Assembly: GCA_905221615.1 (NCBI GenBank)
Contig: CAJNDT010003168.1
Location: 384,923 to 448,922, forward strand
Reading direction: 5' to 3'
Origin: Symbiodinium sp. CCMP2592
Lineage: Eukaryota; Sar; Dinophyceae; Suessiales; Symbiodiniaceae
DNA length: 64,000 nt
Shown: positions 11,830 through 54,033 of the stretch, piece after piece
How the letters are laid out: every line of letters starts with the position of its first letter
How positions within the stretch are numbered: position 1 is the first letter of the stretch
Made by a program: the position numbers and the translations under genes
The notes under the pieces: model-generated
Database searches by the model: none
What the model saw: the letters and a program-made list of their open reading frames with translations, nothing else
What the model was told of the DNA's origin: nothing

Positions 11830-12283
11830 CCCCGACTGCCTTTTGATACATGGGAGTGAACAGCTCGCACGCCCGACTTTAGGCAGGGGAGTCTGCGGCT
11901 GACCTGATGGAGGCATGGAGACAGCAACGCTGAAGAGAGTCCGAGAGCCTATTGCCGCCGGCCACCGACCTCAGGTCATGCAGTGCCTGGCCGAGACGGA
12001 ATCGGAAACAGCACTGCCGGAAAGCACAGGAAGAGAGGCGAGGGGCCGAGGGGTTGAGGGGCCGAGGGGTTGAGGGGCTCTCACGACATGGCTCCAGGAC
12101 CTGGACCAAGCGGGCCTGGAAGCGGCTAAGGAGCTCAGAAGGCAAGGCGCAGCTTGGTTTCCGACTTCTCATGTTGGAAGCACGGGTCCAGCGTTTTTGA
12201 ATGCTTTTTGAGAGTCAAGGAGGACGGCATGCCAGAAGAGGGAGATAGGAATCCGAATGGAGCGAAGTCGCAAAAAATTTGCT
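11830..12283. other. Non-coding; short GC-rich tandem repeat
   Basis: No gene seen. At about 12035-12080 a short tandem repeat of 'ggccgaggggttgagg' occurs in roughly three units. This is the left flank of the retroelement that follows. Confidence 0.5.
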
Positions 12284-12582
12284 GTCGGGCTGTGTGTGTG
12301 TGTGTGTGTGTCCAACCCTGTTTCGAAGGGACCTCGATTTCATGTAGGCAGGGGGCGCAAGAAGCATTCTGGAGTCTTGCGCCAACGAAGACGCTCCAGT
12401 TTGCTTGTGATATCACGGGAAGACGTTCCTGTGACGTACCTGCACAACGGCCGCCCGAAGTACCCCAAAGACGCTGTTGTTTCACAATTGGCCGAAATGA
12501 CAAGATCTAATAACTTCAAGAAGCTGACTCTTCTGACTTTGAGAGTGTGATTCGAGACCTGCGACACGATGTGTCAAGTGTG
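12284..12582 (+). repeat. Left direct repeat (pseudo-LTR) of the retroelement
   Basis: It starts 'gtcgggct', runs through a (TG)n tract (12291-12310) and 'tccaaccctg', and ends 'gtgtcaagtgtg'. Outside the TG tract it matches 22860-23147 essentially base for base, so the frame starting near 12330 gives the same peptide in both copies (for example Y-L-H-N-G-R-P-K-Y-P-K-D-A-V-V). Near-identity implies a recent insertion or recent homogenisation. The peptide may be a captured host exon or chance. Confidence 0.85.
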
Positions 12583-12885
12583 CTTCACAACGGCATTCCC
12601 TACGGGCGCCGTGTCTCCCAGAGGTAGCTCTGGCGTTGACTTTCCCGATTGACTGTATAAGCATTGGATGACTTTCCCTGATTCTATATCCGTGCTTGCA
12701 AGCTGACTTTCTCAGTGAGTCTTCACCGAATGCTTATACCGAAACCTGATTGCTGACTTTCCCACTGATTGTCTATGATCACATCGACTTTCCCGAATCT
12801 GACTTTTTCGCTGACTTGTCGCAGGTCTTTGGCTACAGATTGAGTACTTGAGCTGTACTTTCGGGTAGTTGCTGATCAGTTTGCC
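12583..12885 (+). promoter_or_regulatory. 5' leader with repeated GACTTTCYC motif
   Basis: Between the left repeat and the first ORF, the motif gactttccc or close variants occurs about five times (near 12637, 12668, 12703, 12752 and 12783), usually preceded by 'ct' or 'tg' and followed by 'gatt' or 'actg'. Irregular spacing (about 30-50 bp) argues against a simple minisatellite. It could be promoter or RNA-processing signal repeats. Function is inferred from position only. Confidence 0.4.
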
Positions 12886-14583
12886 ATGGATGCTTCAGGA
12901 AAGAGACGCAGTACCCGCACATCAACCCCCCCTCCTCCTCCCCCACCTCTCCCTCCACCCTCCTCCTCCCCCCTTCCCCCTTTGCCTCCCCCTCCCCTCC
13001 CCACCTCTGCCCCTCCCCCCTCCCGTGGTACCACAGCGAAGTGGATTCCACCCCCCCCTCCCCTTCCCCCTCCCGCCTTCCCTCCCCCACCCCCCACTCT
13101 TGCAGTTTGCCCGGCGCCTGCTTCATCTTCTTCTTTGCCGGTCCCTTCTGCATCCACTGTTGGTGCGGGAACTACAGATGTAACTCCTACCTTGATTGCT
13201 GCACGTGCTGTAAATGATCGACAGGTTCCACAGCAAGAGGTTCCCCCTGCAATCACTCTTCATGCAGACGGCGCAGGTTTCCGGTTGTCGTTTCGCTCGG
13301 TGGCTGATTTCGCTGAATACTCAGCGATCATGTCGGCAAACTTGACCCATGTCCGAGGCCACAGAGATGTGTACGCTGGCCTTAACAATTTGCTTGACAT
13401 TCAGCAGTCTGTTGTTTCTCAACAGAATCAGTCAACAGCATCTGTTCAGAGCCAGCAGTCAGCCATCACGTACCAAACGGATGATTCATCCCAGCCAACA
13501 AAGCGACTTCGGCAAGTTCATGGAAGCGGAGTTTCTCTCGTTGCAGATCCTAACAGCATTCGACTTCGTGCAATTTGTGATCAGATTCCTGGTACTCATG
13601 CAGATCGCGTAGGGTGGCAGCTCAGTGCGGACCAGACTTACGTCTTTCGAGTTAGACCCTTGCAAGACTCGTATGAGCATTTTGAGAATCGATCTCTTCT
13701 CAAAGGGCATGTGGAAGTTGAGTGGGAGCAAGATTCAAACTTCTTCGTGATTCCTGAACTTCGTGGGTTGGAAGTGCGCGATGAAGAAGCGAAGCTGATA
13801 CGTGTGTACTCAGCTAGCTTCAATTGGGTCGCATTATACCCCATGTTTACTGCTCTACGTCACTTGATCAGTTCCAGCCCTGGCCGTATGAAATCGGCAT
13901 GTGAGATTTCGAGAAAGATACAGGCCAATCTTGAGTTGCAGGTTCCCAGCTCTTTGATGCAAAGCACGGCGGACTATCTGATCAGCCTGTTAGGTCTTCC
14001 TCCCCACTCTGTCAATTCGACGGCACTGAAGTATGTCTCTCAGGCAATTGCAGCAGCTGACCAAGCCGCAAACATTCATTCTGTGGAGCTTCGTTCTTTG
14101 TCGAGTTCGTGCAAGTGCTTGAGCATCCACTTCACCCACTTTGAGAGGACCATGATCAGGTCGCATACTTCTGCAGCAGGGATTGCTCGTTCCCCTGTTG
14201 CACACAACACAACAGTGGCAGCGGCTGCATCAATCCTCCTTGAGGGAACGATCCGACCATCGTGGTGGGATGCGAGTGACAGCAAGTGGTCCCCACCAAT
14301 TTCCTTCTATGCTAGGGCTCACACTTCAGATGCAGAACAAGCACAAGAGGCAGCGGCCAAGTACGGTGGCATTCTGAGTGAGCGTCCGGTGTGCATTTTC
14401 GGACATGCATTTAATCGTCAAGGATCCCTCACGCCTCCCCACTCAAGAATCCCCATGGGAGGGGTTGAAGGTGACCATTCCTGCAGCTACATTCGTGATG
14501 TTGCCCGTGCCAAAGATGGCAGATGGGTCTTTCGCTCTTCATGTTTCATCCCGGAAGCGCTTCTTGTTTTTTGGAGGGTCTGA
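12886..14583 (+). CDS. Retroelement ORF1: proline-rich protein, ART-like C-terminus (tentative)
   Basis: 565 residues from an ATG in context gccATGg. Residues about 15-75 are nearly pure proline with Ser/Leu, encoded by a C-rich tract; this is likely disordered and could serve RNA or protein binding. Residues about 120-310 look globular. The C-terminal ~120 residues contain T-T-V-A-A-A-A-S-I-L-L-E-G-T-I-R-P-S followed by I-S-F-Y-A-R. This resembles the start of ADP-ribosyltransferase/KptA-like folds (T-T-x2-A-x3-I-x3-G), but I cannot see a full catalytic triad, so that assignment is weak. It is the first ORF of the element and may be gag-like. A 44-bp piece of it (13788-13831) recurs at 18894-18937. 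The frame is intact. Confidence 0.75.
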   Translation: MDASGKRRSTRTSTPPPPPPPLPPPSSSPLPPLPPPPLPTSAPPPSRGTTAKWIPPPPPLPPPAFPPPPPTLAVCPAPASSSSLPVPSASTVGAGTTDVTPTLIAARAVNDRQVPQQEVPPAITLHADGAGFRLSFRSVADFAEYSAIMSANLTHVRGHRDVYAGLNNLLDIQQSVVSQQNQSTASVQSQQSAITYQTDDSSQPTKRLRQVHGSGVSLVADPNSIRLRAICDQIPGTHADRVGWQLSADQTYVFRVRPLQDSYEHFENRSLLKGHVEVEWEQDSNFFVIPELRGLEVRDEEAKLIRVYSASFNWVALYPMFTALRHLISSSPGRMKSACEISRKIQANLELQVPSSLMQSTADYLISLLGLPPHSVNSTALKYVSQAIAAADQAANIHSVELRSLSSSCKCLSIHFTHFERTMIRSHTSAAGIARSPVAHNTTVAAAASILLEGTIRPSWWDASDSKWSPPISFYARAHTSDAEQAQEAAAKYGGILSERPVCIFGHAFNRQGSLTPPHSRIPMGGVEGDHSCSYIRDVARAKDGRWVFRSSCFIPEALLVFWRV

Positions 14584-14884
14584 GTGCAACACGCTGCTTT
14601 GACCGGCCACGTTCTCAAGTCTCTTCCGTTGTCAACTGCTTTGCACGCATACATGTGTCGAAAACATGTCAGTTAAGATTGCGAGCTGTGCCAGCAAGGG
14701 ACGTGCAAGTGTGTTGCAAGGGACGTGCAAGTGTACTGCAAGTGTGATGCAAGAGTTGTGCAAGCGATGTGCAAGTATTGCAGTTTGGGAATAACTTGAG
14801 CAGGTTTGTTCGCCTACGGAGCCTTTTGATTCGAAGTGTCGTTAGCGATTCCGCGCACTCAGATTTGTCGATAGATCTGAAACC
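14584..14884 (+). repeat. Intergenic spacer with 11-bp gcaagggacgt-type repeat
   Basis: Between ORF1 and ORF2. From about 14694 to 14785 the sequence is an irregular array of 10-11-bp units of the form gcaag-(gg/tg)-(acgt/tgtt/tgat), reading '(t)gcaag' every 10-11 bases. The same family of units occurs in four further spacers of this element, always outside the ORFs. Presumed regulatory or RNA-processing spacer. Confidence 0.7.
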
Positions 14885-16051
14885 ATGGCATGGAATGGAC
14901 AGTGGGACACCAACACAGGGTACGGGAGGTCCCAACAATCGTGGGGTCAGCACCGCTATCAGCCGTATAGCTCGGGAAGTTGGACTGATCCCAACCTCTC
15001 CAAGTCTGCCCCTGCTAGTCAGCCACCTCCACTACCTCCGCCTCCACTTTCTTCGGCACCTTCATCATCGCCGTCTACTCCCATGCCATTTCATCAAAGT
15101 CCTGGTCTTGTTCCTGCACTACCGAATGGATGGGCGTCAGATCGTGATCATTATGATTCAACGGTGCTTCATGGGTTGTCCTTTCGTAAGTCCATCGAAG
15201 CCACCCCTTGGTCGCGGAAGAAAGGGATCGCAGGAAAAGACCCACTCAGCATTCCTGTTCAGGAATTCCTGTTTCATGGAGTTTCAGATTGGCGTCTTCG
15301 AGCATTGAGTCATGGCAAGTTTTTCAGTGTTGTGCCAGTTGCTACGGTTGCCGAAGCAGTGTTCATGTCGCAAGTGACGAAGAACCTTCGAGATCGCAAA
15401 GTTGACATTGATGCAGTTGCTACGCAACTCTTTCAGGCCGCTAATCCATCTACAATCATTCCCAACAAGAACACGGATTGTGCAGCTCTGTTTCAGCCGC
15501 TGGTTGACAAGATCGTTCAGCTCATGTTTGACAACATGCCGGTGTCTGCAGGCGTCGATCAATCTCAGAAGTTCCTTCAAGTTACGGAAGAGCTCAATCG
15601 CCGTCGTGAACAGTTACAAGCCGCAGGACTTCCGGTTACCCCCACGAAACCCGCTTTGAAAACACAGCTCCCGGTTGCCTCGCAATCTAGTGCTCCGTGT
15701 CCACAATCCGGGACACCACCGCAGACTTGGGAGAGTGACCTCAAGCGTAAGATCGACAGTGTTCCTGCCGAAGCCCTGAATGATCACAAAGCCCGACTAA
15801 AGGGATCAGGAGAGGGGGACGTCGACAAGTGGATCCAGAGCTTCAAACGACCCCTAGGAAAGCGCTTTGTCGATTTTCAAGAGCACATTGTGTCTGTCTC
15901 CAAGCTTGTGCAGATCAACTATGGAGGCAAGGAGAAAGCAAAACTGCAAGAACTTGCAGTCAAATTCGGGATCTCGGCGACTTTTGCATCTAGGATGGGC
16001 ATCAAGAGTCTCTCTACGTGCATTGCAGCGGCAGCCTTTCAAGTTGTCTGA
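14885..16051 (+). CDS. Retroelement ORF2: Q/P-rich N-terminus, helical C-terminus
   Basis: 388 residues, ATG in context accATGg, stop TGA at 16049. Residues 1-35 are rich in W, G, Q, Y and S (W-N-G-Q-W, S-Q-Q-S-W-G-Q-H), typical of RNA-binding low-complexity tails. Residues 45-75 are proline-rich. From about residue 110 it looks globular and helical, ending in a basic domain (I-Q-S-F-K-R-P-L-G-K-R-F-V-D-F) that may bind nucleic acid. The next ORF continues in the same frame after the stop, so stop readthrough could in principle fuse ORF2 to the endonuclease. Probably a nucleocapsid-like partner of the RT. No named family recognised. Confidence 0.75.
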   Translation: MAWNGQWDTNTGYGRSQQSWGQHRYQPYSSGSWTDPNLSKSAPASQPPPLPPPPLSSAPSSSPSTPMPFHQSPGLVPALPNGWASDRDHYDSTVLHGLSFRKSIEATPWSRKKGIAGKDPLSIPVQEFLFHGVSDWRLRALSHGKFFSVVPVATVAEAVFMSQVTKNLRDRKVDIDAVATQLFQAANPSTIIPNKNTDCAALFQPLVDKIVQLMFDNMPVSAGVDQSQKFLQVTEELNRRREQLQAAGLPVTPTKPALKTQLPVASQSSAPCPQSGTPPQTWESDLKRKIDSVPAEALNDHKARLKGSGEGDVDKWIQSFKRPLGKRFVDFQEHIVSVSKLVQINYGGKEKAKLQELAVKFGISATFASRMGIKSLSTCIAAAAFQVV

Positions 16052-18801
16052 ATTGCACACAGCCTTGCTTCCAAGCAACTCTCCGTAAAGGAGATTCGGT
16101 CAGCACATGTTCTTATTACAGAGGTTGGCAAGTTCATGTCGTTTGTGCTTCAATTCATTCCGCATGTGGACAAAGTGATGGCCATTTGGTTGCAAGGTTT
16201 TTGTCATCTGATTCTACTGTTCCATTACTCCAGGGGTACTTCGCCAGAACAACGGCTGCTTGAAAAATTGCGCAATGCTGGAGTCACGCCGTCTGATTAC
16301 ACGTTCACACGGTTCCAGTGTCCTTGTGCAGTTTATTTGAAAGCCCCCGTGTCTTGGAGTACGCGTTCATCGTTCAAGCAAAGAGACCGATGGATGTATG
16401 TGGGAAGTACTTCAATTTCTATTTCGAAGCGTGAAGGCGTGAATTCAACCGGCAGTCCAAACTCAAGCAAGTTCTCCGTGAGCAATATGTTCAAGTTGAA
16501 CCGGCCATTCGTATTTGGGCTTCGCTGGGCAGGTATTTCGACTTTTCTACGCTTTGTCTGTCTGTTCATGATGACTACAAACAAGCGTGGGTGCAAGAGC
16601 ATGTCCTTATTGATCGGTGGCAGCCCAGATTGAATTCACCGTTCATTGACCGTTTCTTCATTAAGTCTGCATTGGGCTTCAAGAGACTCAGGCCACGTCC
16701 ATCTCTCAAGAATGTTTCATTGTTTTCCAGACTTTGGGTCAAAGTTCGAAGACGTGCTGCTTCAACAAGTACTCCGATTCGATGTTTGATGGACAAAAGC
16801 CAAGCGTGGTCGCTCTTGTACGATTTGGCATCGTTGACCTCGGCATCTTTCTCTGCTGCGAAAATTGTCAGATCTGCCAAAGTCTCGACGTTAGAGTTGT
16901 ACGCGATGTTCCGCATGGCCAAGATCATGGAGCAACCTTTCAGATCTAGAGTGGTACAGCTGCTCAAGTCTGCGTTGAAGTTTCGTAACTGCTCTGTACC
17001 CCGACACAACAAGTCAGTCACTTTACCTTTTCTGTCTCACCCCTCCTTTGCTGCCCATGTCTCATCTTTTCTGTCTCGTACCATTCAGCAGTTCAAAGGC
17101 ATCTGCATCCCGTTTCACCTCCCATCTAAGACGCCGAGAGAGTCTGCTCCTCAATCGTTGGGCTCCATTCTTCACAATCACTTTGAGTGGGAGAAGAAGC
17201 TTGCTGACACAGCAGTTGATCACCTTCCATGCAGATGCCAACAATTTCAGCAGCAGCATCCCAATGTGGACTTGGTGGATGGACATGTGGTTACTGGACT
17301 TGAGACGTTGTCATTTCGCCAACCTGTTCTTAGAGAACTTGCTCAGGCCAACTCAAAATCCCTTATCTTTCCATCAAAAGCAAAGTACATCAAGGAGGCG
17401 ACCTCTTCGTACAAGAGTTGGTGCAAGACACATTTTATTCCCTTGCACACTCTTCCCATGTGGCTGCAGTTCATTCATTCTGAGTGGCAGCTTCACCTTC
17501 GCCATATGTGCTTATGCCCGAAATTCCAGGAGAGTCATGCGTTGCAGCTCAAAGACATCGTTTGTACAGACTGGGTAATTCACCTTGCTGATCACGAATC
17601 CACTCATCTCATGGTTTTTTGCCCCAGATTCTATTTCCAATCCTGCCATCGAGTATGGTCAGATGTCAAGGTGTTCAGCCCTATGCCGATGTCTGTTTCG
17701 TCAGCGAAGCTTTTTCTTTGTGCGCACGTCCCGTCTCCACTGGTTCGCAAGTACCCTTGGGGATTCAAGTTGGATGCAAATCTGCCTGTGGGACAGATTT
17801 TTCTCAAACGCAAAAAGGCCTTCAAATCAGGACGAACCATCATCAGCTACAAGAACACAGCCTTGGGCCCTATTCTCAGGGCAGCAGCGATTTGCATTGA
17901 CCAAATGGTCAACACAGTATGGCCTGGTTCTTTGTCACGCAGTGTCCCACAGATTTGGCATCATATTCACCAGGTCTTCAGGCAGTGTCCGTTGGAAGTT
18001 GAACTTGAACTGCTCAATGACGATCTGGTCGGGTTCTTTAACTCAGTGCCACAAAGCCGTATTCTGGAAGCAGTGGAGATGTTGGTACGTATGTTCACCG
18101 CAAGGCACCCTGATGTCAAATTGTCAGTGTGCATCAACGAGAAGAGCAAACACTTTCGTTCAATTCACGGGAAGATCTCTAATATTCGTCGACACTTCGA
18201 TTGGAAGACCATCGATCCATTCGACTTGGTTACCATTGTTCGTCTCAGCTTCGAATGCGGCTTGTTTGTGGCGTTGAATCGAGTGTGGATGCAAGTTGAT
18301 GGTACGTCCATAGGTAACCAAATCAGCCCTGTCCTCTCTTCCCTTCCAGTGGTGATGACTGAGCTTGGTTGGGCAGCAATGTTTCCGCAGATCTCGAGCT
18401 TCCCTTCTACGTTCCTTGCAAGATACGTGGACAATCGTTTGGTGATTGCACCCACCGAAGTGCATAAAACAGTGCCTTTTCAAGTCTTCAGCCAAGAAAC
18501 CTTTTATGGTTCTCCGATTGTTCTTGAAGCTGTCGGTGATGGTCACTTTTTGGGATTTGATATTGATGTCCGAAACCGAACCATTTATTATCTCCAGCCC
18601 AAGTTCCTTTGGCAAGTTCGACATCCCATGAGTGGAGGCAGCGAACGATTGCTGGTGTCAGGTGCGAAGTCGAGAATCTCTCTTATCCGTAAGTACACTT
18701 GGCCAACGTGCCAAGCAGAAGTCGCCGTTCATACCTTTGTACGGTGGTTAGCGAACCTTGGATATCCATTTCGCCTGTGTGAAGCTTTGATGAAACGGTA
18801 A
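16052..18801 (+). CDS. Retroelement pol: GIY-YIG endonuclease + Penelope-type RT (frameshifted)
   Basis: Open from the ORF2 stop; the first ATG is at 16136. The endonuclease part has C-A-V-Y as the GIY element, R-W-M-Y-V-G-S-T as YIG (about 16395), and E-H-V-L-I-D-R-W-Q-P-R-L-N (about 16600) with the expected catalytic Glu. The two halves are in different frames because 'gcgtgaag' is tandemly repeated at 16429-16443; one unit fewer restores a single frame. CxC (P-C-R-C-Q) lies at 17227-17241. RT motifs follow: G-R-T-I-I-S-Y (fingers), N-D-D-L-V-G-F-F-N-S-V-P (motif A, about 18015), G-T-S-I-G-N-Q-I-S-P (motif B, 18301), R-Y-V-D-N (motif C, 18421) and F-L-G-F-D-I-D (motif D region). Motif C is YVDN instead of YVDD, one G-to-A change away, so this copy is doubly suspect as an active enzyme. 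It would nick DNA and copy its RNA by target-primed reverse transcription. Confidence 0.88.
16429..16443 (+). other. 8-bp tandem duplication breaking the endonuclease frame
   Basis: The unit gcgtgaag occurs 1.9 times in succession. Upstream, the reading frame carrying YVGST is open; downstream, the frame carrying the Glu helix and RT is open. The offset between them is exactly one 8-bp unit. Replication slippage is the simple explanation. Confidence 0.8.
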
Positions 18802-19138
18802 AAGCGGTCTGTAATCAGTTGACAGTTGACAGCAGACGTGTATGCAACATGTCTTGATCTGACCCCGTCATGAGTGAGAGATTTGCAAATGTTAGCGAAG
18901 CTGATACGTGTGTACTCAGCTAGCTTCAATTGGGTCGACCGAAAGTGAGAGATTACAGTGACGAGCAAGGGATGTGCAAGCGGATTGCAAGGGATGTGCA
19001 AGCGAATTGCAAGTGATGTGCAAGCGGATTGCAAGTGATATGCAAGGGTGTGCGAGGTTTGTGCAAGTGCAGTGCAAGAGATGTGATTCTTGAATTGCGT
19101 TGTTCAGTTCCAGCGTTCGGCTTTCAGCGGTACACGCC
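18802..19138 (+). repeat. Spacer: 44-bp copy of ORF1 plus 11-bp repeat array
   Basis: After the RT stop, 18894-18937 is an exact 44-base copy of 13788-13831 inside ORF1. From about 18950 to 19085 follows an array of gcaagggatgt / gcaagcggatt / gcaagtgatgt units. This array is nearly the same string as 22008-22110, so the two spacers are duplicated as blocks rather than being independent expansions. Confidence 0.75.
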
Positions 19139-19396
19139 ATGTCGGATCGATCCCGATCGCGTTCTCCGACTGTTTCGTGGCGATTTTATTGGGTGAAAAA
19201 TCAAGGACCCAATGGCAATGAAACGTGGTGGAAATCTTGGTTTCCCGCCACCTCTCGCTGGATTTCGGATCGTTTGGCTGCTGACAATCAGTGGCACCAA
19301 GCTTCTCAGACCACTTCTTCGGTGGACTTGAACCTCCCTACTGAGAGCGCTAATTCTTTGTCACCCCGAAAACGCAAGCGAGATGCATCACCGTGA
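19139..19396 (+). CDS. Retroelement ORF4: small SR/basic protein
   Basis: 85 residues from ATG in context gccATGt. It begins M-S-D-R-S-R-S-R-S-P-T-V, an RS dipeptide run, followed by a Trp-rich middle (W-R-F-Y-W, E-T-W-W-K-S-W-F) and a basic end, P-R-K-R-K-R-D, that looks like a nuclear-localisation signal. Intact, just downstream of a repeat spacer. Likely RNA-binding or nuclear import role, by composition only. No family recognised. Confidence 0.55.
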   Translation: MSDRSRSRSPTVSWRFYWVKNQGPNGNETWWKSWFPATSRWISDRLAADNQWHQASQTTSSVDLNLPTESANSLSPRKRKRDASP

Positions 19397-19686
19397 GAGC
19401 TTTTGTCATGCTGGAACAGCAGACGACTTGTCTGCTTAATTCGTTTTCCCAATTGACATTTTTGGGACACTCATCATTACTGGATTAGAGCGCCTGCACC
19501 ACTGAAGTGGAACCGTCTTTGCGCATTGCAAAACAGCGCGTAGGAGCGTTACGCTCGGTTTTATGTCTCTTTCGCCCTTTCTCTCTCCCCTCTCTCTCTC
19601 TGTCTCTCGTGAAGCCGAAGGCGTTTTTCTTTTTTACTCATGAGGTGCCGCCAGCCGTTTCCGTCTTGATTTCTCGACACACCGGC
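19397..19686 (+). other. Spacer between ORF4 and ORF5
   Basis: About 290 bp. Contains a pyrimidine-rich tract (about 19567-19610: ctctttcgcc, ctctctctctgtctctc) followed by a T-run. A polypyrimidine tract before an AG could be a (trans-)splice acceptor ahead of ORF5, as expected for a polycistronic transcript in a dinoflagellate. The 11-bp repeat is absent here. Confidence 0.4.
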
Positions 19687-20173
19687 ATGGCTTCCCGTCA
19701 AGACAACGGGGTACCATATGATGATCTTCCTGATGATGCCAGCTCCTGGTCTTCGGCTTTCGATCCTCCCAAAGACCCTGCACCTACAGAGGTGGCGTCT
19801 TGGGTTAAGAAGTCCCCCAACAAGTGCAAGAAGACCAAGAAGTCCATGAAGTCAAAAAGGCTGAAAAAGGACCGGCCACCAAATAAGTCTCCGAAGTCCA
19901 TGAAGTCTAAGAAGGACAAACGTGAGCGTTCACCTGTTCCCTCTGAAGCAAGTGATATCACGCTTGGGGATCCGATGCAGTTTCACCGAAATCCTGCAGC
20001 ACGGTCAAAGGCTTGTGCAAAAATGCTGGTCAGAGCTAACCTCCGCTGTGCTTGCCATTTTTGGTATGTTGCACAGTGTCCCAACCGAAACGTTTGAGTC
20101 TTATTTTGATTTGGACACCGGAAGTGTACAGGATTACATGTCACCTGCTGGAAAAACTACCAGAGCAGAGTAA
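19687..20173 (+). CDS. Retroelement ORF5: lysine-rich protein, possible frameshift
   Basis: ATG at 19687 (the open frame extends further upstream but only through low complexity). The first ~45 residues are acidic/Ser-rich, then a strongly basic tract with K-K-S-M-K-S-K and related repeats (about residues 45-85). In the starting frame it ends at TGA 20097. The overlapping +1 frame continues to TAA/TAG near 20173 with a better-looking peptide (C-W-S-E-L-T-S-A-V-L-A-I-F-G-M-L-H), suggesting a frameshift near 19975 or programmed shifting. Histone-tail-like composition suggests nucleic-acid binding. No family recognised. Confidence 0.45.
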
Positions 20174-20200
20174 CATGTCAGAAACGTGCAAGTGCTGAGC
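20169..20200 (+). promoter_or_regulatory. Conserved intergenic element upstream of ORF6
   Basis: The string 'agtaacatgtcag', one variable base pair, then 'acgtgcaagtgctgagc' recurs at about 22118-22149 upstream of ORF9 with a single mismatch. Two otherwise unrelated ORFs thus share the same ~32-bp element 50-80 bp upstream of their ATG. It could be a promoter or a trans-splice signal. Confidence 0.5.
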
Positions 20201-20247
20201 ATCGCAGTGTTTTCGGCTAAGAGACGAGATCATCTGTGTAAGCAAGC

Positions 20248-20895
20248 ATGCCGACGGTGCCACCTTCGGATCCTAACATCGATGAGTTCTTGAGAGCGCT
20301 CACTCATTCAGCGCGTGTGAGATTGCTCAACTTTGTATCACGACCGCAACTTCGTCAAGCTCTCGTACTTCAGTTGACAGCTTTTGTGCGTGACGGGACA
20401 GAAAGAATGCTGCAGCAAGAGTTGCGTCGCTTGGATGAGAGGGATAGAGCAAACCTGCGTGAAGAACGTCCTAGCAGTAGTGGAGCTTCAGGATCACGTT
20501 CGTCCAGATCCCACCCCTATGCACCCCCATCCTCTCTGCCAGCAACGAGGAGTACACCGAGTGCAGGGAGCGACAACCTTTCGTCCAGTTCTGCACCTCC
20601 CCCCCTACCTCCCCCTGGCCCTCCCCCTCTTCCCCCTCCTCCCCTCCCTCCCCCTCTTCCCCCTCCCTTTTTCCCCCCGCCCAGTGCCAGTGCTCCTGTC
20701 TTTCCACCCCCGGTACCACCAGCAAGCTTGGAGCATCGTGTGTCTGAACCTCCTTTGGTGTCCAGTGCTGCTTCGTCGTCGGCCGCACCTACATCTTCAG
20801 CTGCGTCAGGTACTCCGATTAGATCCAAACCTATGCCTACCAGAAGACGTGCATCACGCCGATCTCGACGCAGTCAATCGTCTGATCTTAGCTGA
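20248..20895 (+). CDS. Retroelement ORF6: helical N-terminus, proline-rich middle, basic tail
   Basis: 215 residues, ATG preceded by 'gtaagcaagc'. Residues 1-75 are predicted amphipathic helix (I-D-E-F-L-R-A-L-T-H, L-R-Q-A-L-V-L-Q-L-T-A-F-V, E-L-R-R-L-D-E-R-D-R). Residues 110-155 are a P/L/F-rich tract like that of ORF1. The C-terminus is Arg/Ser-rich (T-R-R-R-A-S-R-R-S-R-R-S-Q). The P-tract plus basic tail recurs in ORF1 and ORF2, hinting at ancestral duplication or convergent composition. Function unknown. Confidence 0.55.
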   Translation: MPTVPPSDPNIDEFLRALTHSARVRLLNFVSRPQLRQALVLQLTAFVRDGTERMLQQELRRLDERDRANLREERPSSSGASGSRSSRSHPYAPPSSLPATRSTPSAGSDNLSSSSAPPPLPPPGPPPLPPPPLPPPLPPPFFPPPSASAPVFPPPVPPASLEHRVSEPPLVSSAASSSAAPTSSAASGTPIRSKPMPTRRRASRRSRRSQSSDLS

Positions 20896-21064
20896 GTATG
20901 CTCGATGTGACAGGATTTCACTTGTATCTGTAACGCATGCGAGTGCTGAAGTGAGGAAAGACTGTGCAGTGGACGCCAGTGCTGAGAGTACTCGTTCATT
21001 CGTGTTGTTGTACACACCAGAACAGTGTTGCAGCACCCTGCTCAAGTCTCGTTCCATTGCGCTA

Positions 21065-21442
21065 ATGTCGAGCAACTCAGCGTGCGATCCGCTGGCACCT
21101 CTTCAACGCTGGATTTCCTACACACAACAGGAGCTGATCACAATCAGAGGTGAATTCCGTCATTTTCGCGAAGAAGCATTGTCCGTCCAGAAGATCCAAC
21201 AAGCCCAACTCGACGTGCTCACCACACAAATCAGGGACACTGAGGCTCAGGTGGCGGAAGTCATGTCCGCCACCACAGAACTGTTTCAGAAACTTCAGAA
21301 GACCAACGAAGTGGTGGGGAACTTGCTGACGGATTTGCATTCTCTTCAATCTGTGACTACTCATTGTGTTAATTCTCTTCAACTACAAGAAACAACAGAG
21401 TTGCCCCCAACGCTTCCAGCAGAAATTGAAGTCTCAGAGTGA
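21065..21442 (+). CDS. Retroelement ORF7: coiled-coil protein
   Basis: 125 residues from ATG at 21065. The frame is open further upstream without a break, but that part is a shadow of ORF6. It consists largely of heptad-like sequence: W-I-S-Y-T-Q-Q-E-L-I-T-I-R-G-E-F, L-D-V-L-T-T-Q-I-R-D-T, V-A-E-V-M-S-A-T-T-E-L-F, V-V-G-N-L-L-T-D-L. This is a strong coiled-coil candidate and likely oligomerises. Coiled-coil ORFs are common in retroelement gag-like proteins and are reported in rotifer Athena terminons. Ends just before an 11-bp repeat array. Confidence 0.6.
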   Translation: MSSNSACDPLAPLQRWISYTQQELITIRGEFRHFREEALSVQKIQQAQLDVLTTQIRDTEAQVAEVMSATTELFQKLQKTNEVVGNLLTDLHSLQSVTTHCVNSLQLQETTELPPTLPAEIEVSE

Positions 21443-21667
21443 AACGTGAGCAGTTGCAAACAAGCGTCTGTGTGCCAGTGTCACTGCAAGGGTGTTGCAA
21501 GGGATGTGCAAGGGACGTGCAAGTGACGTGCAAGGGATGTGCAAGGGATGTGCAAGTGACGTGCAAGTGGAGTGCGCGTGTGCAGTACTGTGCATTTTCA
21601 GGTTTCTGCATGAGCCGTCTTGAGTTGCAGCATTTGACATCCAGTGAAATTGTGTAGGTTGTCCAAC
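21443..21667 (+). repeat. Spacer with 11-bp repeat array
   Basis: From about 21484 to 21580: near-perfect alternation of gcaagggatgt and gcaagtgacgt units (about nine). The following sequence ends 'aattgtgtaggttgtccaac' before the ORF8 ATG. A closely similar 'aattgtgtag' lies just before ORF9, where a splice-acceptor AG would be useful. Confidence 0.7.
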
Positions 21668-21976
21668 ATGAAGCGCAAGGCTCGCAAAGCCAATTTGCCT
21701 TGGAGTACGAGCCGCGACTACAATTTTCGGATGTGGGTTCGTGTATGCAGTCGGGCAACCGGACACGAGACTATTATTCTCCACATCCAGTTGTCAATCA
21801 ACGATTCCATCAACGTTGCCAAATACCTTGTCGCGATGCAGCTCTGGGAGAAGTTCGGTTGGTGGCCTAGGTTGCACACCTTCCAGCTTGTACAAAACTT
21901 TCGTCATCTTCGGTTTACAGAACCTGTTACGACTGCTCAAACCCTCGAACCAGTCGATTTCGTCGTTACGGTATAA
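21668..21976 (+). CDS. Retroelement ORF8: small basic protein
   Basis: 102 residues from ATG (caacATGaag). Basic N-terminus M-K-R-K-A-R-K-A, then a compact globular-looking sequence with D-Y-N-F-R-M-W-V-R-V and I-N-V-A-K-Y-L-V-A-M-Q-L-W-E-K-F-G-W. Intact. No family recognised. Its predicted strand-helix mix could be a small nucleic-acid-binding domain. Confidence 0.5.
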   Translation: MKRKARKANLPWSTSRDYNFRMWVRVCSRATGHETIILHIQLSINDSINVAKYLVAMQLWEKFGWWPRLHTFQLVQNFRHLRFTEPVTTAQTLEPVDFVVTV

Positions 21977-22227
21977 AAAGAGACCACTTCTGTGACAATT
22001 CAAGAGCAGTGACGAGCAAGGGATGTGCAAGTGGATTGCAAGTGATGTGCAAGCGGATTGCAAGTGATATGCAAGGGTGTGCGAGGTATGTGCAAGTGCA
22101 GTGCAAGAAGCGTGCAGAGTAACATGTCAGAGACGTGCAAGTGCTGAGCTGTCGTGAGTTGCTTTCATCAGACATGCAACAGGCTTTTGCTTCAAGCACT
22201 CGGAAAATTGTGTAGACCCCCAACATC
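21977..22227 (+). repeat. Spacer: 11-bp repeat array and shared upstream element
   Basis: 22008-22110 repeats the 18950-19085 block with few differences (gcaagggatgt, gcaagtggatt, gcaagtgatgt, then 'gcaagggtgtgcgagg'). It is followed at 22118-22149 by the element shared with the ORF6 upstream region and by 'aattgtgtag' before ORF9. Confidence 0.7.
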
Positions 22228-22704
22228 ATGGACTGGGCTGCTTCTGACGTGCTCGACAACATCTTGATGTACGTGTTGCCGATCAGAACCAGAATCACAT
22301 TCATTACCCGTCTCGATCCAAATGATGACCCTGAAGAGGCGCAACCCATTACTGACACCATGGTGGCGTACACTTTCCTGCGACGTGGGATACAGGAGTT
22401 TCGGCTGTCCTCTTCGGTTGAGTGGACCATGGGCTTTCAGTCTTTGCATACCACCATCCGTTTTGCACAAATCAATGCCGTGGCATGCACCATGTTGAGC
22501 AGCCCGTCAAAAAGGTGGATGAGAGCAGTCGTAGACCTAGTACAGGAGCGTTTGCGAGTGAGTATTGTGTCACTGGCCAGCGTTGCGTACCAAACTGCAA
22601 CTCAGTGTTGCATGTACTTCGATGCTGATGCGGAAGAAGCAGAAGTTGAATTGCACTTAGTGCATAGACTGCGCTTCCTGAGGTTTCGTAGCCCACTCTT
22701 CTAG
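22228..22704 (+). CDS. Retroelement ORF9: unknown globular protein
   Basis: 158 residues from ATG in context catcATGg. No low complexity: L-D-N-I-L-M-Y-V-L-P, D-P-N-D-D-P-E-E-A-Q, then helices (M-R-A-V-V-D-L-V-Q-E-R-L, V-S-I-V-S-L-A-S-V-A-Y). Slightly Cys-containing (T-Q-C-C-M-Y-F). Intact last ORF before the right repeat. No family recognised. Being uninterrupted and compositionally normal, it is likely under selection in the family. Confidence 0.6.
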   Translation: MDWAASDVLDNILMYVLPIRTRITFITRLDPNDDPEEAQPITDTMVAYTFLRRGIQEFRLSSSVEWTMGFQSLHTTIRFAQINAVACTMLSSPSKRWMRAVVDLVQERLRVSIVSLASVAYQTATQCCMYFDADAEEAEVELHLVHRLRFLRFRSPLF

Positions 22705-22859
22705 GTTTCTTGAGCATAAGACTCTCCCATGAAACTCAGTCAAAAAGCAGCAAGGGATGTGCAAGGGATGTGCAAGTGACGTGCAAGGGATGTGCAAGGG
22801 ATGTGCAAGTGACGTGCAAGGGATGTGCAAGGGATGTGCAAGCTCCTGCAATGAGCCCG
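22705..22859 (+). repeat. Spacer with 11-bp repeat array
   Basis: 22750-22852: nine or so units alternating gcaagggatgt and gcaagtgacgt, the cleanest array of the element, directly before the right terminal repeat. Confidence 0.75.
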
Positions 22860-23147
22860 GTCGGGCTTGTGTGTGTCCAACCCTGTTTCGAAGGGACCTC
22901 GATTTCATGTAGGCAGGGGGCGCAAGAAGCATTCTGGAGTCTTGCGCCAACGAAGACGCTCCAGTTTGCTTGTGATATCACGGGAAGACGTTCCTGTGAC
23001 GTACCTGCACAACGGCCGCCCGAAGTACCCCAAAGACGCTGTTGTTTCACAATTGGCCGAAATGACAAGATCTAATAACTTCAAGAAGCTGACTCTTCTG
23101 ACTTTGAGAGTGTGATTCGAGACCTGCGACACGATGTGTCAAGTGTG
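22860..23147 (+). repeat. Right direct repeat (pseudo-LTR) of the retroelement
   Basis: Same sequence as 12284-12582 except for a shorter TG tract (22868-22876). It runs out into (GT)n at 23142-23166. A polyadenylation signal (AATAAA) is not visible, as usual for dinoflagellates. Confidence 0.85.
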
Positions 23148-23166
23148 TGTGGGTGTGTGTGTGCGC

Positions 23167-23536
23167 GTAAACGCCTGGATATGGCGACTGTAAGGCGTAG
23201 CAATTTCCGCAGCTTTCGTGTCAGTGCAGGGGGTCCCAGGTCTGCTGCCCATGCTGGGGCCAACGAAGACCATGAGTAGCGGACGTGTAAACGTACCTGC
23301 TAAGAGGAGTACCTGAGTGGCTGAGTCCGCAGCTGGTATCCTCAACGGGGACAGAACCTTTTTCCTTGAAACGTGTTACATGTTGCTACCAGCATTGCAC
23401 GTCGCAGACAGCAGCATATGCCATTCCCATTTTGGGCCAGAAACCTAGCCCATGACGACGACCTGTTGCAGTCTGTCGAAATGTCGACTTGTTCTGTCTG
23501 ACTTTCTTCGCATCAGTTCGTGCCGAGCCAAAGTGT
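23167..23536 (+). repeat. Duplicated low-copy segment, copy 1 (shortened)
   Basis: It begins 'gtaaacgcctgg' and ends 'gccaaagtgt'. It aligns with 24234-24938 at high identity through 'gcgactgtaaggcgtag', 'gggggtcccagg', 'gtatcctcaacgggg' and 'catatgcc'. It lacks about 260 bp after 'gtgtaaacgtac' and about 60 bp after 'catatgccatt'. It abuts the right end of the retroelement. Confidence 0.8.
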
Positions 23537-33102: not shown

Positions 33103-33635
33103 AAAGTATTAACAAGCGAAACCAAAAGGTGGACGACACGTAGGCGCAAAGCACCAGCAAGTAGACGAGACACAGGCATAGGCGTATTTGTCTTTTTGTC
33201 GGGTTGTACTAGGCAATGAATGTCAAGGTTCATCTGCGTAACTTGCTGTGAGGCCAAGGCAGCACGGCCGAAATCGAGCGGGTGTGGTGCCGAGAAGACC
33301 TGCTTTTGCGTAGGACCTAGGACCCCCGTTTTCAGATTCAAGGACTTGCGTTCAGCTCCTGTACGCTTCCAAGCGTCATTCCCTTTTCGACTTCCAGGAG
33401 AGCTCTCTTCTGAGACTTTTTTCCATCATGTTACGTCGATGTTTTTGTCGGGCTTCAGCCCTGCCGCATTGCCTCGTGCTTGTCGCTTGTCGCCTTTTCA
33501 GTACTGGTGGCCAGGCGCAGCGCCGGCCAGGCTAGGAAGAAGACAACAGTACTTGCAACGCCATACAATGCCATGCACTATGTATCAACGTTACCAGAGC
33601 TATTAACACAGTCGAAGGGCAAGGGCAGCATCCTC
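33103..33635 (+). other. Upstream region of the NRAMP gene
   Basis: No separate gene. The NRAMP reading frame stays open back to about 33480, with a further in-frame ATG at 33573, so the true start or a 5' exon junction could lie here. No TATA-like box; dinoflagellate promoters are generally not recognisable this way. Confidence 0.4.
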
Positions 33636-35881
33636 ATGGCCGCTCGCTCCAACCGCCCGAGACCTCCCAAGCTCTCGCACTCCGGTAGCTTGGAGAAAGT
33701 TGACGGTGTGCTGAGCCGTCAAACCTCAAAAGATTCATCTCCCGTTGCATTGGCGGCCTTTGGTTTGTTGAATCCGCCAGACTCGCACCCGTCTACTCCG
33801 ATTGGTGTCCCTGAGCTGAAGAAGCCGCTTGCCTTAGACGATGTAAACGAGGACCTGATCGAAAGGGAGAGGGAGACGTGGCACGCATGGTTGCAGCGGC
33901 TCTTGGCCTTTACGGGGCCTGGTTGGCTGATGAGCATCGCGTACGTCGATCCTGGAAACCTCGAAGCAGATCTTCAAGTCGGGGCACAATTTGGATACTC
34001 TTTGTTGTGGGCTCTAACAGGTGCTACGTTCATGGGTCTGGGAATGCAGCTGCTGGCAGCTCGGCTAGGCTGCGCTACAAAGCGCCATTTGGCAGAGCAC
34101 TGCCGGGATGCCTTTGAGTTTCCACTCCGGCAGCTTCTTTGGATGCTCACCGAGCTTGCGATTGTCGGCTCGGACATCCAAGAGGTGATTGGCTGCTCCA
34201 TTGGCCTGGAGCTACTTTTTGGTATCCCCTTGACTGTTGGAGTATTGATCACGGCCTTTGCGGCCTTCATCTTCCTTTTCTTGGAACGTCTGGGCACACG
34301 ACCGCTGGAGCTGTTTTTTGGTGTGCTGATTCTGATTTTGGCTTTGTCCATGGGTCGCTTGTATGCAAGAATTTGCCCTGACAGCATGGCAGTGGCAGAA
34401 GGTCTTCTCGTTCCCTGGCTACCACCTTCCGCCATGCAGCAGGTGCTCGAATAGCAAACACGTCTGCAACCAGTCTTGACATATATGGTCACGCGCTCCG
34501 CGGCCCCCGCTTCCCCCCCGGCCCCCGTCATGGTCCATGGTCCAAAACGCCGCCTCCCCTGCGGGTGGGGTGTGGGGTCCTTCCCCTGCGGGTGGTTGTC
34601 GGGGTTTTGGGTTTAGTTCAAAGGCATAAGCGGCATGAGGCTTCGCGTCGACAAGGGCTTAGGGAGGGTTTGGGGTGTAGTTTCGTTATGGTTGACAGTT
34701 CATGTTCTGCTGTAGGCTTAAAGCCTGCATTCAGGGTGTGCAGTGTAGGGTTTAAAGTACGGGGTCAAGACAGGAACATGCGCTACTGTGCTACGTTACA
34801 GGGTTTGTGGCTTGCGTAGGTACGATCCTCGACCCCTGGCCGCTCCTCCAAGCCGCAGCTCCAGCGGCCCCGACCCCTCTCCGCACACGCCACGCCCCCG
34901 CCCACGACCCGCCCCCTACCAAACCATACCATTGGGATCTATTGGGGGGGGGGGGGGCCGGGAACGCCAGACGCCTGACCGCATATGAAAAAGTTAGATA
35001 AATAATATATACAAATAAATATACAAATATAAATATACAAAATAAATGTATGTGTGTGTATGTGTATATACGTAGGTATATTTATATTTACATTTTATCT
35101 TGATAGTTTCTGTTGTCCCCTGCAGGTAGTTGGGATGGTTGGCTGTGTGATCATGCCGCACAACCTGTTCTTACACTCTGCTCTTGTGCAAAGCCGTGTG
35201 GTGCAGCCTGGGGGCGAGGCAGATGCTGTTTGGCTCTTCACAGTGGAGTCAACTTGTGCGATCCTCACCTCGCTGATCATCAACACCTTCGTCGTAGCAG
35301 TCTTTGCAAAGGGCTTCTTTGGCAAGCCCGGCACCGATGCAATCGGTCTGGCAAATGCGGGCCAATACTTGGGAGAGGCTTTTGGGCAACCTATGAAAAT
35401 CGTCTGGGCCCTAGGTCTGTGTGCTGCCGGCCAGTCCAGCACAATGACCGGTGCCTACGCCGGTCAGTGGGTGATGCAGGGATACCTGGATTTGAAGGTA
35501 GCTCCATGGAAACGGGCCATCATTACCCGTTCCATGGCGCTAGTTCCATGCCTTGCTGTTGCAGTCTACTTTGGAGGACAGCGTGATGGCTTGGACATTC
35601 TCAACACATACTTGAATGTGTTGCAGAGTGTCGTACTTCCTTTCGCGGCCGTGCCCCTGCTCATGTTTGCAGGGTCGAAGCGCGTCATGGATAACCTCGT
35701 ATTGTCGAATACCTCGCTGATTGCTGCTTGGTTTGCTACAGCCCTGATCATTTGCGCCAATCTATACCTGGCAGTAGAGCAGTTTGCTGGCCTTGGTGTG
35801 GCACGCATGCAGGTCGGTTGCAGTCTTTACGTACTAACGATACTCTACGTTGCCTGGAAGGGCCATCAAGCAGTGAGATAA
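33636..35881 (+). CDS. NRAMP-family divalent metal transporter
   Basis: Two exons, 33636-34442 and 35126-35881, joined in phase 0, give about 520 residues, typical for the family. NRAMPs are proton-coupled importers of Fe2+, Mn2+ and related metals in plasma or vacuolar membranes. After a ~100-residue Ser/Pro-rich cytosolic N-tail comes TM1 with the metal-binding D-P-G-N (A-Y-V-D-P-G-N-L-E-A-D). Exon 2 opens with TM6 V-G-C-V-I-M-P-H-N, carrying the family's second metal site (the M-P-H motif). G-Q-S-S-T-M-T-G-A-Y-A-G-Q is the consensus transport signature. Hydrophobic segments fit 11-12 TMs. I chose ATG 33636 (M-A-A-R-S-N-R); ATG 33573 would add 21 residues. Both diagnostic motifs are intact, so the protein should be functional. 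Confidence 0.92.
34443..35125 (+). other. NRAMP intron (683 bp) with GC- and AT-rich islands
   Basis: GT donor (gtgctcgaat) and AG acceptor (cccctgcag), phase 0. The sequences at the two junctions are nearly the same (gcaggtgc / gcaggtag), a direct repeat like that left by introner insertion. Inside: a C-rich stretch, 'ttagggagggtttggggtgtag'-like telomere-type words (34610-34760), a G-run near 34944 and an AT-rich stretch (35000-35100). Confidence 0.85.
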
Positions 35882-48510: not shown

Positions 48511-50964
48511 TATGTATTTATTTTGTCCTTTGTGTGTGTGTGTATGTATGTGCGTGTGTGTTTGTGCACGACAGTATGCCGCCAAACTATGGCTGTTATG
48601 GTGCAGCCCGACTCAATTCTCCAGGCAGTGGAAATCCACTGTCTTTGTTGCAGCACCTGGAAGTGTGGACGATGATGACTTCCGAAGCATCCTAGCCACA
48701 GTCAGTAGTCTGCTTGTGGGTGATCAGCAGAAATGCTTGGGGTTTGGTTGTCAGTGACCGTGTTACCCCGGCTGCTGGCAGCTCAAGGCGTGTCGACAGG
48801 GACGAGCACCAACGGTGAGGATTCTAAATTGCGATGGCTTGGCTTCAATGGTGACAGCTCCAAGAACAACCGGAAGCAGCAAGAAAAACTCTTGGCAGAG
48901 GTGCATGCAATGAGTGTGCAACCGAAGCATGACTGCTGGCAGTATTCGAGCTTGCGAGGTGAAAGTATTGGGTCTTTTGGATGGTCTCGTTGATCCCGAA
49001 ACTGGCGAAGTGTTGCAGGACAAGCAGGTGCGGGGACTGCCGTCAGAGACCGTTAACCTTCCTCGCTGGTACGTGCACATTTCGAGAGAGTCTGAACTCC
49101 CGCCCGACACAGTGCCCGCTGAACTAGAAGCCGCCTTGCTTTTGCGCGCCAGAGGCGAAAGCTGCCAATGATAGCAATTCCAGGTGGGTGCCAGACAGAT
49201 TTCTTAGTTCAGCTGAAGTTGTCCCCCTTGTAATCAAGGCGAAGTTCGATAACGTCAGCCGGATCCGCTCCAATTCACGACGGGGAGGTCTGACTCTGAC
49301 ACTTTCCTAAACCGTCGACCGCTTACCTTTCCTCATCGCTCGGGATGTGTATACTTGAAGGTGGAAGCATGACTAAAAGCCGCTGTTGACAGGACGATCA
49401 AGAGAAGAAGCTGATGGAGGATCTTGTGTCGTAGAGCCCAATGTCACGACCACATGCTCGGCATGCCGGAAGTGGCCAGTGATTTCAAGAAGAGCGAGTG
49501 GCATGCTGTGTATTTAATTCGGATACGTCGTATGATCTGGCGACTTGCAGGAGCGAATCGCATTCCTGGAGAAGGAATTGCAGCGCTGCGAGCGCAAGCA
49601 GCGCAAAGCCACTGCCGACTGCCAGCAGTTGCAGCCTGCTAGCGTCACCGTGCAGTCACCGAAGCAGTTGTCGGGGATCGAGATGGAATTTCGGTAGGGC
49701 AGCATCAGGAGCCTGAAGCACTGTTCCTCCGCCCGACGTTTCCATCTAGAATCAACTGTCTCGTGCGCGAGCGGACCCGTGTACCTACAAACAAATTCCA
49801 TCCGGAGTCTTTGCATGATCATGATCTACATGTCGATGCAACCATCGTCTTCTCCGAAGTACTTTGCAAGGCAGACGCGCGTGGGCCGCTGGCTTTCTTT
49901 GACCTCGATCCAGAGAGAATTAGGCGGCTCAGCAACATCCACCAGCGTCTGACAGCTGAGTTATCTCAAGCTCGTGCGCTTCTGCAAAGCTTGGATGATG
50001 AGGAGACACGATCTTCTCGCTGCCCAGCTGCATGTATTAATGGGTGTCAGGTAGGTTTCCTGCAGGATTTCGGATTTGTTCTGTTACCGGATGGAGGCGG
50101 GATTTCAGCATTCTAGACTAGCAGGTTTTAGGCAAGCCATTTATGCACCAAGGTCGCCGTGAGGCACTCCTGCAGGCAGTGACCGATGGCAAGGCCTCTT
50201 CAGGAGGAGCCGTCAAAGCAAAGAGGCATGGCCCTCAATTCTCGGAGTTCGCTGCTGACACTCGCGACACCATCTGCCACATGGGCGATGAGTACAAGGA
50301 TCTCAAGGGCGATATCTTGCGAGATATGTTGGGGGGCTCCGTGACGGCTGCACGGACTTGGTTGGAAAGTAAGGGCGACCCAGATACATATCATGCTGGT
50401 ACTGGTTGGACTCCGCTGTTGATGGCAGTCTCCACTGGGAATATGGAGCTTGTGGAGCTGCTAATTTCTTACAGGGCGAGCCTGACACTCCCGGCAAAAG
50501 GCTCCGGGGAGACCTGTGCCCACCTTGCGGTGTACAAGACTACAAGTGAGATGCTTCACAAAGTACTGGATGTGCATGGACCTGCCACTAAGGAGGTACG
50601 AAACGATGGCTCCACAGCACTGAGTCTGGCAGTGGAAAAGGCTCCGGCACGTGTGAAGAACGAGTTCATACGTGCTCTCCTAGAGAAGCACGCGGACCCG
50701 AACGTGAAGCGGAAAGACGGTTGGACGCCCCTGGGCCTCGCTGTTCGAAACAATCTGCGTCATGCGACAAAATCAATGGTTGCTGCACACGGGGCCATTT
50801 TGACCATCGTTCCGGATACCAAGCCACCGCTTACTCTTTGGGAGCTGGCGGCTCCACATAAGGACCTGCAGAAAGTCATCCGAATGAAGCTTCCGAGCAA
50901 GGACTTGTCGGAAATCGAGAAGCGATGGCCGGGAACCCTGCTTCAGATGGTCGATGATGATTAA
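48511..50964 (+). CDS. Multi-exon ankyrin-repeat protein
   Basis: Three exons chain in phase: 49551-49693, 49750-50050 and 50125-50964 (TAA). A likely earlier exon is about 48950-49170 (L-G-L-L-D-G-L-V-D-P-E-T-G-E-V-L), with a short coiled-coil exon near 49393-49425. Introns at 49694-49749 (56 nt) and 50051-50124 (74 nt) are GT-AG. The N-terminal part is coiled coil (R-I-A-F-L-E-K-E-L-Q-R-C-E-R-K-Q; L-T-A-E-L-S-Q-A-R-A-L-L). The last exon holds about four ankyrin repeats (G-W-T-P-L-L-M-A-V-S-T-G-N-M-E-L; G-S-T-A-L-S-L-A-V-E; D-G-W-T-P-L-G-L-A-V-R), which mediate protein binding. Cytosolic scaffold by inference. The first exon is not found. Confidence 0.75.
49694..49749 (+). other. 56-nt GT-AG intron of the ankyrin gene
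   Basis: Donor cg/gtaggg, acceptor catctag. It splits an Arg codon (CG|A) and restores the downstream frame. Confidence 0.6.
50051..50124 (+). other. 74-nt GT-AG intron of the ankyrin gene
   Basis: Donor gtcag/gtaggt, acceptor ctagcag, phase 0. Joins G-C-Q to V-L-G-K-P-F-M-H-Q. Confidence 0.65.

Positions 50965-51943: not shown

Positions 51944-54033
<2,090 letters not shown>

Follow-up and report, generated by a model that had tools for sequence, protein, structure and literature searches.

The 64,000-nucleotide stretch analysed here, hereafter the window, comes from the dinoflagellate Symbiodinium sp. CCMP2592 (contig CAJNDT010003168.1, positions 384,923 to 448,922), and its positions 12291-23163, the span common to the aligned copies, hold one copy of a dispersed retroelement of about 10 kb. 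Nine open reading frames (ORFs) on one strand lie between two direct end repeats (12303-12582 and 22868-23147) that both adjoin TG runs and flank 10.3 kb of DNA. The earlier note on this locus, made from the letters alone, had described a nine-ORF unit of ~10.9 kb and direct repeats of ~290 bp beside TG tracts; the unit returned with the same extent in other copies, and the repeats proved identical at 280 of 280 positions. The window copy comprises the following features, in which POL is the gene with reverse transcriptase (RT) motifs:

12291..12302, no strand: TG run bordering the element on the left, insertion target
12303..12582, + strand: left terminal repeat, 280/280 match to the right repeat
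12886..14583, + strand: ORF1, 565 amino acids (aa), proline-rich N-terminus
14694..14776, + strand: 11-bp TGCAAG-type array, 7 sense and 0 antisense TGCAAG
14885..16051, + strand: ORF2, 388 aa, intact in 9/9 full-length copies examined
16136-18801, + strand: POL, whole span in the window, frame broken
16136..16633, + strand: N-terminal part of POL, GIY-YIG-like endonuclease motifs (by eye, intact copies)
16591..18801, + strand: C-terminal part of POL, CxC and RT motifs (sequence reading)
18965..19085, + strand: 11-bp repeat array, 9 sense and 0 antisense TGCAAG
19139..19396, + strand: A86, small RS-rich ORF, sublineage 1 cassette
19687..20097, + strand: B136, lysine-rich ORF, sublineage 1 cassette
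20248..20895, + strand: C215, conserved N-terminus, proline-rich middle
21065..21442, + strand: D125, coiled-coil-like ORF
21485..21567, + strand: 11-bp repeat array, site of X186 in sublineage 2
21668..21976, + strand: E102, small conserved ORF
22016..22107, + strand: 11-bp repeat array
22228..22704, + strand: F158 ORF
22750..22842, + strand: 11-bp repeat array
22854..22867, + strand: hairpin AGCCC-GGTC-GGGCT with a stem of 5 bp, adjoining the start of the right repeat
22868..23147, + strand: right terminal repeat
23148..23163, no strand: TG-rich right flank, insertion target

The ends of the element recur throughout the genome assembly (1,098,105,373 bases in 5383 contigs), for which assembly haplotypes or duplications may inflate the counts. 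The junction between the left repeat and the internal sequence gave 146 matches (up to 2 mismatches) compared to 0 for a reversed-pattern control, the right repeat end followed by TG gave 144 (up to 1 mismatch) compared to 0 in the control, and the junction of hairpin and right repeat, searched with a stricter pattern, gave 94 compared to 0. Among the 100 left junctions listed of the 146, 47 had a same-strand right junction as partner no more than 30 kb away. Thirty of these pairs were spaced by 9602-10417 bp, with a scored POL inside 24, while 11 were spaced by 4120-4202 bp with no scored POL inside and 6 showed other spacings. The POL-less units of 4.2 kb are probably a uniform short family of non-autonomous elements; examples with both end junctions of the element lie at C9:140305-145373, C236:125984-131061 and C675:140650-145719, and the spacing of right ends in this family suggests that its repeats are longer, at about 0.8-1.0 kb.

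To compare whole units, we aligned the window with seven uninterrupted copies (C38, C2824, C890, C1395, C1733, C942 and C2), one interrupted copy (C5292) and one short derivative (C5257). The uninterrupted copies match the window from 12291 to ~23160 at 88-99% identity apart from cassette differences, and ORF1, ORF2, POL, C215, D125, E102 and F158 follow each other in identical order in every one of them by tblastn. This agrees with the earlier note, which had proposed a multi-copy unit carrying its accessory genes between its own repeats; the outcome it had named as contrary, with POL only between the repeats, is excluded by the junction pairs, the ORF order and the linkage of E102 to POL described below. 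In C5292, about 18.3-20.8 kb of the window sequence is absent, and tblastn found no C215 match in this copy. A copia-like insertion, recognised by eye, and a masked stretch of N interrupt it at C5292:5800-31600 (L024-L026).

The cassette differences define two sublineages. In sublineage 1 (C38, C2, C890, C942 and the window), A86 and B136 lie between POL and C215. In sublineage 2 (C2824, C1395, C1733 and C5292), both are missing and a 186-aa ORF, X186, stands between D125 and E102; correspondingly, C2824, C1395 and C1733 lack 18.9-20.17 kb and carry ~0.8 kb of different sequence near 21.57 kb. Across the 30 best-scoring POL loci, window included, A86 was present in 24 and absent in 6, and B136 accompanied it in the same 24, with L047 only partly covered. 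A midpoint-rooted POL tree of 33 sequences (these 30 loci and 3 copies) placed the 8 without A86 and B136 in one clade and the 25 with them in another. Divergent matches to ORF2, A86 and D125 in L056, L048 and L037 were set aside as candidates, those in L056 and L048 being read as frameshifts in matched DNA that is 96-97% identical.

The terminal repeats behave like long terminal repeats (LTRs), with fixed ends and joint renewal from one source. Between the two repeats of one copy there are 0-3 differing sites (10 copies; C5257 also has a gap), while full-length repeat matches listed elsewhere in the genome are 92-100% identical to the window repeat. Between fixed end motifs, repeat length ranges from 200 to 548 across copies among the matches listed (100 of 146 left junctions, 100 of 144 right ends and 100 of 122 starts). 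In 19 of 22 copies, which include a 1.1-kb unit, left and right lengths nonetheless agreed to within 3, one C979 row that spans two units being left out of the pairing; shuffled lengths gave a mean of 2.8 matches, and 0 of 100000 shuffles reached 19. Lengths that vary between copies and agree within a copy indicate that the two repeats are renewed together. The earlier note had listed pseudo-LTRs among the traits of Naiad/Chlamys elements; with their fixed ends and equal within-copy lengths, the repeats here are unlike pseudo-LTRs that arise by variable 5' truncation, though direct terminal repeats and a tandem are present.

Several other features of the ends were seen. First, a hairpin of the form AGCCC-RGTY-GGGCT stands directly before the right repeat in 10/10 copies, with one stem mismatch in C2. 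Second, units can adjoin: C979 is a head-to-tail tandem (repeat-unit-repeat-unit-repeat), and in C942 a second unit begins 2 bp past the end of the first, its right repeat running off the contig. Third, because C1733 and C5292 have common flanks, the 10 copies represent 9 distinct insertion sites. The left flank of the window copy (12284-12302) reads GTCGGGCTGTGTG and resembles the end of the internal hairpin that precedes the right repeat; the likeness may be accidental, or a remnant of a unit that once lay next to this one. The terminal repeat (window 12303-12582) has one frame that resembles protein-coding sequence and shows several changes at third positions, but in 6/8 copies this frame is disrupted by a stop or a shift of frame, and we do not claim a coding role. 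Elsewhere in the window, a repeat finder reported a single 652-bp AC microsatellite array (52968-53619), the type of DNA into which the element inserts.

The accessory genes are kept by selection. The ratio of nonsynonymous to synonymous substitution rates (dN/dS), pooled over pairs with our own Nei-Gojobori-type script from intact sequences that are few and related and form non-independent pairs, fell between 0.07 and 0.39 in all ten ORF families, copies frameshifted in an ORF being excluded for that ORF. The values were 0.073 for POL (7 sequences), 0.085 for E102 (9), 0.12 for B136 (4), 0.17 for ORF2 (9), 0.19 for both D125 (9) and F158 (8), 0.20 for A86 (5), 0.26 for ORF1 (4 intact copies; C1395 excluded for a stop), 0.33 for C215 (7) and 0.39 for X186 (4). 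Library searches gave little for these proteins: ORF1 had no Pfam match, ORF2 matched no known family, a PADLOC scan returned nothing meaningful, and D125 had Pfam matches below threshold only and weak PHROG matches to phage tape-measure proteins that are probably compositional. The accessory genes might serve RNA packaging, nuclear entry or host interaction, which is a guess.

Arrays of an 11-bp TGCAAG-type repeat stand before ORF2, A86, E102, F158 and the right repeat, and they are directional. The element contains 51 TGCAAG in sense and 6 in antisense orientation, with 41 of the 51 in spacers, compared to 29 sense and 30 antisense occurrences in the rest of the window. This strand bias suggests that the arrays may act in RNA, as trans-splice acceptors, in processing or in protein binding. 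A spliced-leader motif was absent from the 64-kb window at up to 3 mismatches.

The earlier note had seen a single pol ORF with an upstream GIY-YIG motif, a CxC motif and a Penelope/telomerase-type RT. A single 885-aa frame exists in 5 of 9 full-length copies, the window being included in the comparison (C38, C890, C1733, C942 and C2), though a frameshift splits it in the window. Within the intact frame, the order of endonuclease motifs, CxC and RT can be followed by eye, the domains being called from motifs, to which profile searches lent no support. The GIY-YIG-like motifs are AVY, YVGST and KRE, then E..LI..W.PRLN, and their residues vary little or not at all among 26 aligned copies. CxC reads LPCRC (about 17230-17238) and is found with GHVxTGL. 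The RT region contains RTIISY and what read as motif A (DDLVGFFNSVP, about 18013-18051), motif B (GTSIGNQISPVLSS, about 18298-18345), motif C (FLARYVDNRL, about 18412-18453) and motif D/E (HFLGFDI).

Many POL copies in the genome are open. Of 1151 first-look candidates, 61 were scored, and in 58 of these the matched stretch contained no stop. A motif-B search gave 218 matches compared to 1 in the control, revealing additional families of POL that share this RT motif, among them divergent ones with the variants GTCIGNQISP, GSAIGNQISP and GSPIGNQISP; 40 of the 100 sites listed were three DNA variants of GTSIGNQISP, and the left junction of the element lay upstream of 31 of these 40 and of 0 of the other 60. 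The E102 motif gave 93 matches genome-wide compared to 1 in the control. For the two main variants, with 34 POL sites between them, it lay downstream in 31 cases, 2.69-2.89 or 3.40-3.65 kb away except for one at 17.1 kb in a nested copy.

One derivative hints at how units are rearranged. C5257 (149600-155400, L023) holds a 4.57-kb element with both repeats present, in which 15 segments match C2824, those in the interior being reordered. The 147 blastn pieces, which overlap and were counted against two masters, all lie on one strand, six joins show overlaps of 1-16 nt, and 2772 of 4566 bases are covered. Such a mosaic is as expected if RT jumped between RNA templates, since its joins are all-sense, reordered and marked by microhomology, and rearrangement of DNA would be expected to invert some pieces. 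C5257 also contains several internal repeats, the longest ~440 bp and their mutual similarity about 74-99%, for which the two masters gave no match. In the window, a 44-nt piece of ORF1 is copied at 18894-18937, where the segment with A86 and B136 begins, and a spacer module occurs twice (20165-20200 and 22114-22149, 97%).

Taken together, these features make it probable that the element is a retrotransposon some 10 kb long that is autonomous and has been active recently, its LTR-like repeats enclosing a POL of GIY-YIG-like, CxC and Penelope/telomerase-type RT parts and conserved accessory genes. At the level of motifs, an affinity to Penelope/Chlamys elements is likely, and we provisionally regard the element as a new multi-gene variant of this kind; as no library confirms the POL domains, we do not file it as a proven Penelope member. 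The Naiad/Chlamys-type placement made in the earlier note is matched by the order of the motifs and finds no backing in Pfam, NCBIfam, PDB or hhalign.

A number of observations weigh against this interpretation. A frameshift divides POL of the window between two ORFs that overlap (16136-16633 and 16591-18801); POL is also frameshifted in C2824 and C1395 and cut in C5292. Motif C reads YVDN instead of YVDD. Pfam and NCBIfam identified no domain in POL, and PDB searches gave nothing meaningful and no RT match. Alignment by hhalign of the endonuclease region with relatives of T4 SegB, a phage GIY-YIG nuclease, reached a probability of 0.8% with a profile that lacked depth, and the AlphaFold model of POL was unusable (predicted local distance difference test score 28.7), probably owing to the 98-99% identity of the aligned copies. 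Turning to the unit, 53 of the 100 left junctions listed had no right junction within 30 kb, and E102 was found downstream of 1 of 6 POL sites of the third variant and of none of the 60 remaining motif-B sites; in the other POL families, E102 may thus be missing or diverged. TG-rich DNA flanks both sides in 10/10 copies, including some short runs, with TG content at random sites not compared, and the search pattern for the right end itself demands TG. The small and related samples behind the dN/dS values also belong here. In further searches, the endonuclease part matched PHROG 20892, a family of unknown function, at an expect value (E) of 3.6e-4, and a phage tblastn with this region gave two weak matches only, with E about 2.

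The best-surviving alternative, which we consider unlikely, is a new retroelement order with an LTR-type cycle, in which the RT is not truly Penelope-like and the endonuclease motifs are due to chance or convergence. Repeats whose ends are fixed and whose lengths vary between copies and match within a copy fit it, as does a POL that no library links to a known family. Pfam searches found no integrase, protease or RNase H, a weak objection given that Pfam missed the RT too, and the motif order, the FFNSVP, ARYVDN and LGF motifs and the TG-rich sites fit Penelope elements with an N-terminal endonuclease. An endogenous virus or virus-like element, whose accessory ORFs would be structural or host-interaction genes, seems improbable to us. 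Many small selected ORFs without known relatives and a coiled-coil-like D125 whose phage tape-measure matches are weak would suit it, but no capsid, packaging ATPase or integrase appeared in the ORFs searched, with libraries that miss most of the element, and six peptide patterns found no POL relative in IMG/VR. A reading of the small ORFs as fortuitous frames within noncoding parts of the element is very improbable and is rejected by dN/dS: these ORFs lack known relatives, and C215 and X186 have the highest ratios, but values are low throughout, even for the 102-aa E102, and the frames are kept across sublineages. Least credible of all, a POL-only retroelement beside or around unrelated host genes and later spread by segmental duplication could draw on the shared flanks of C1733 and C5292, which show that duplicated or allelic copies exist, but is rejected by the copy alignments, nine insertion sites among 10 copies that all have repeats and TG-rich DNA at their borders, discrete unit sizes and the E102 linkage.

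For the favoured multi-gene retrotransposon, we propose the following cycle. An RNA spanning the unit would be made and its genes expressed, perhaps singly by means of the 11-bp spacer arrays. POL would bind its own RNA, with the hairpin and UG run as possible contact sites, and its endonuclease would open a TG/CA microsatellite, in keeping with the TG-rich location of the copies, so that the strand ending in CA could prime on the UG run. RT would then copy the unit and switch template, a possible route to the joint renewal seen in the repeats, and at times template switching could yield reordered derivatives such as the one copy examined.

A more far-reaching version, which we hold only tentatively, is that of an undescribed retroelement order that combines an LTR-like cycle with a Penelope/telomerase-like RT and N-terminal GIY-YIG, with separately expressed genes split by directional 11-bp arrays and cassettes gained, lost and reshuffled by RT template switching. 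If true, it would represent, in eukaryotes, a retro-type analogue of mobile elements that carry cassettes. On either version, an element that has endonuclease motifs, interior TG-rich insertion sites, nine selected genes, many open POLs and two sublineages differing in whole cassettes would illustrate the way in which a retroelement of this kind turns into a carrier of genes. The identity of the repeats within a copy poses a direct and testable question, namely how Penelope-type repeats form, and the further POL families in the genome make a comparative study feasible at once.

Outside the element, the window contains an Nramp metal-transporter gene in two ORFs (33480-35881; Pfam E 4e-44 and 8e-52), which therefore probably has at least one intron, and an ankyrin-repeat ORF (50143-50964).

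In the literature on Penelope elements, within titles and abstract openings and with most subscription papers outside this scope, no such element was described. Penelope-type elements are described as compact, with one or two ORFs in 4-6 kb, telomeric terminons excepted (PMC6431247). The terminons, or Athena elements, are giant endonuclease-deficient Penelope relatives of bdelloid rotifers (PMC6431247 and PMC5718144). Our element resembles terminons in joining a Penelope-type RT, here a motif, to many accessory ORFs, one of them coiled-coil. It differs in that its POL has endonuclease motifs where terminons are deficient, that it has flanking DNA on both sides with TG-rich tracts rather than telomeric repeats, and that no hammerhead ribozyme was found in it, while terminons carry one with a stretch of telomeric repeat; the exonuclease, esterase and Rep domains given for terminon accessory genes were not seen in it. 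The hammerhead comparison refers to an Rfam search with no match in the window at the gathering threshold and no hammerhead up to E 5 in 12200-23250.

Canonical endonuclease-containing Penelope/Poseidon elements have RT and a C-terminal GIY-YIG in one ORF, a hammerhead ribozyme and an AT-rich target (PMC11167929). Like them, our element has RT and GIY-YIG, here as motifs, on one ORF, tandem repeats and a nuclease-primed model; unlike them, it has an N-terminal endonuclease, nine genes, TG-rich sites and no hammerhead found. With gypsy/copia LTR retrotransposons it shares left and right repeats that are renewed together, and it differs from these in the TG-rich insertion and in the absence of an integrase, protease or RNase H match from the ORFs searched, a weak difference since the RT was missed as well.

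The closest likeness in domain order is to Naiad/Chlamys, reportedly Penelope-like elements with an N-terminal GIY-YIG that are said to have been described by Craig et al. in 2021. Naiad/Chlamys elements have an insertion-in-fingers RT domain and a bias towards insertion in microsatellites and are not known to carry a canonical hammerhead ribozyme. Our element shares, at motif level, the order of GIY-YIG-like motifs, CxC and RT, together with terminal direct repeats, a head-to-tail tandem (C979), TG-rich insertion sites and the lack of a hammerhead match. It stands apart from them in having nine genes where they are units centred on RT and endonuclease, and in its fixed-end repeats that are renewed together.

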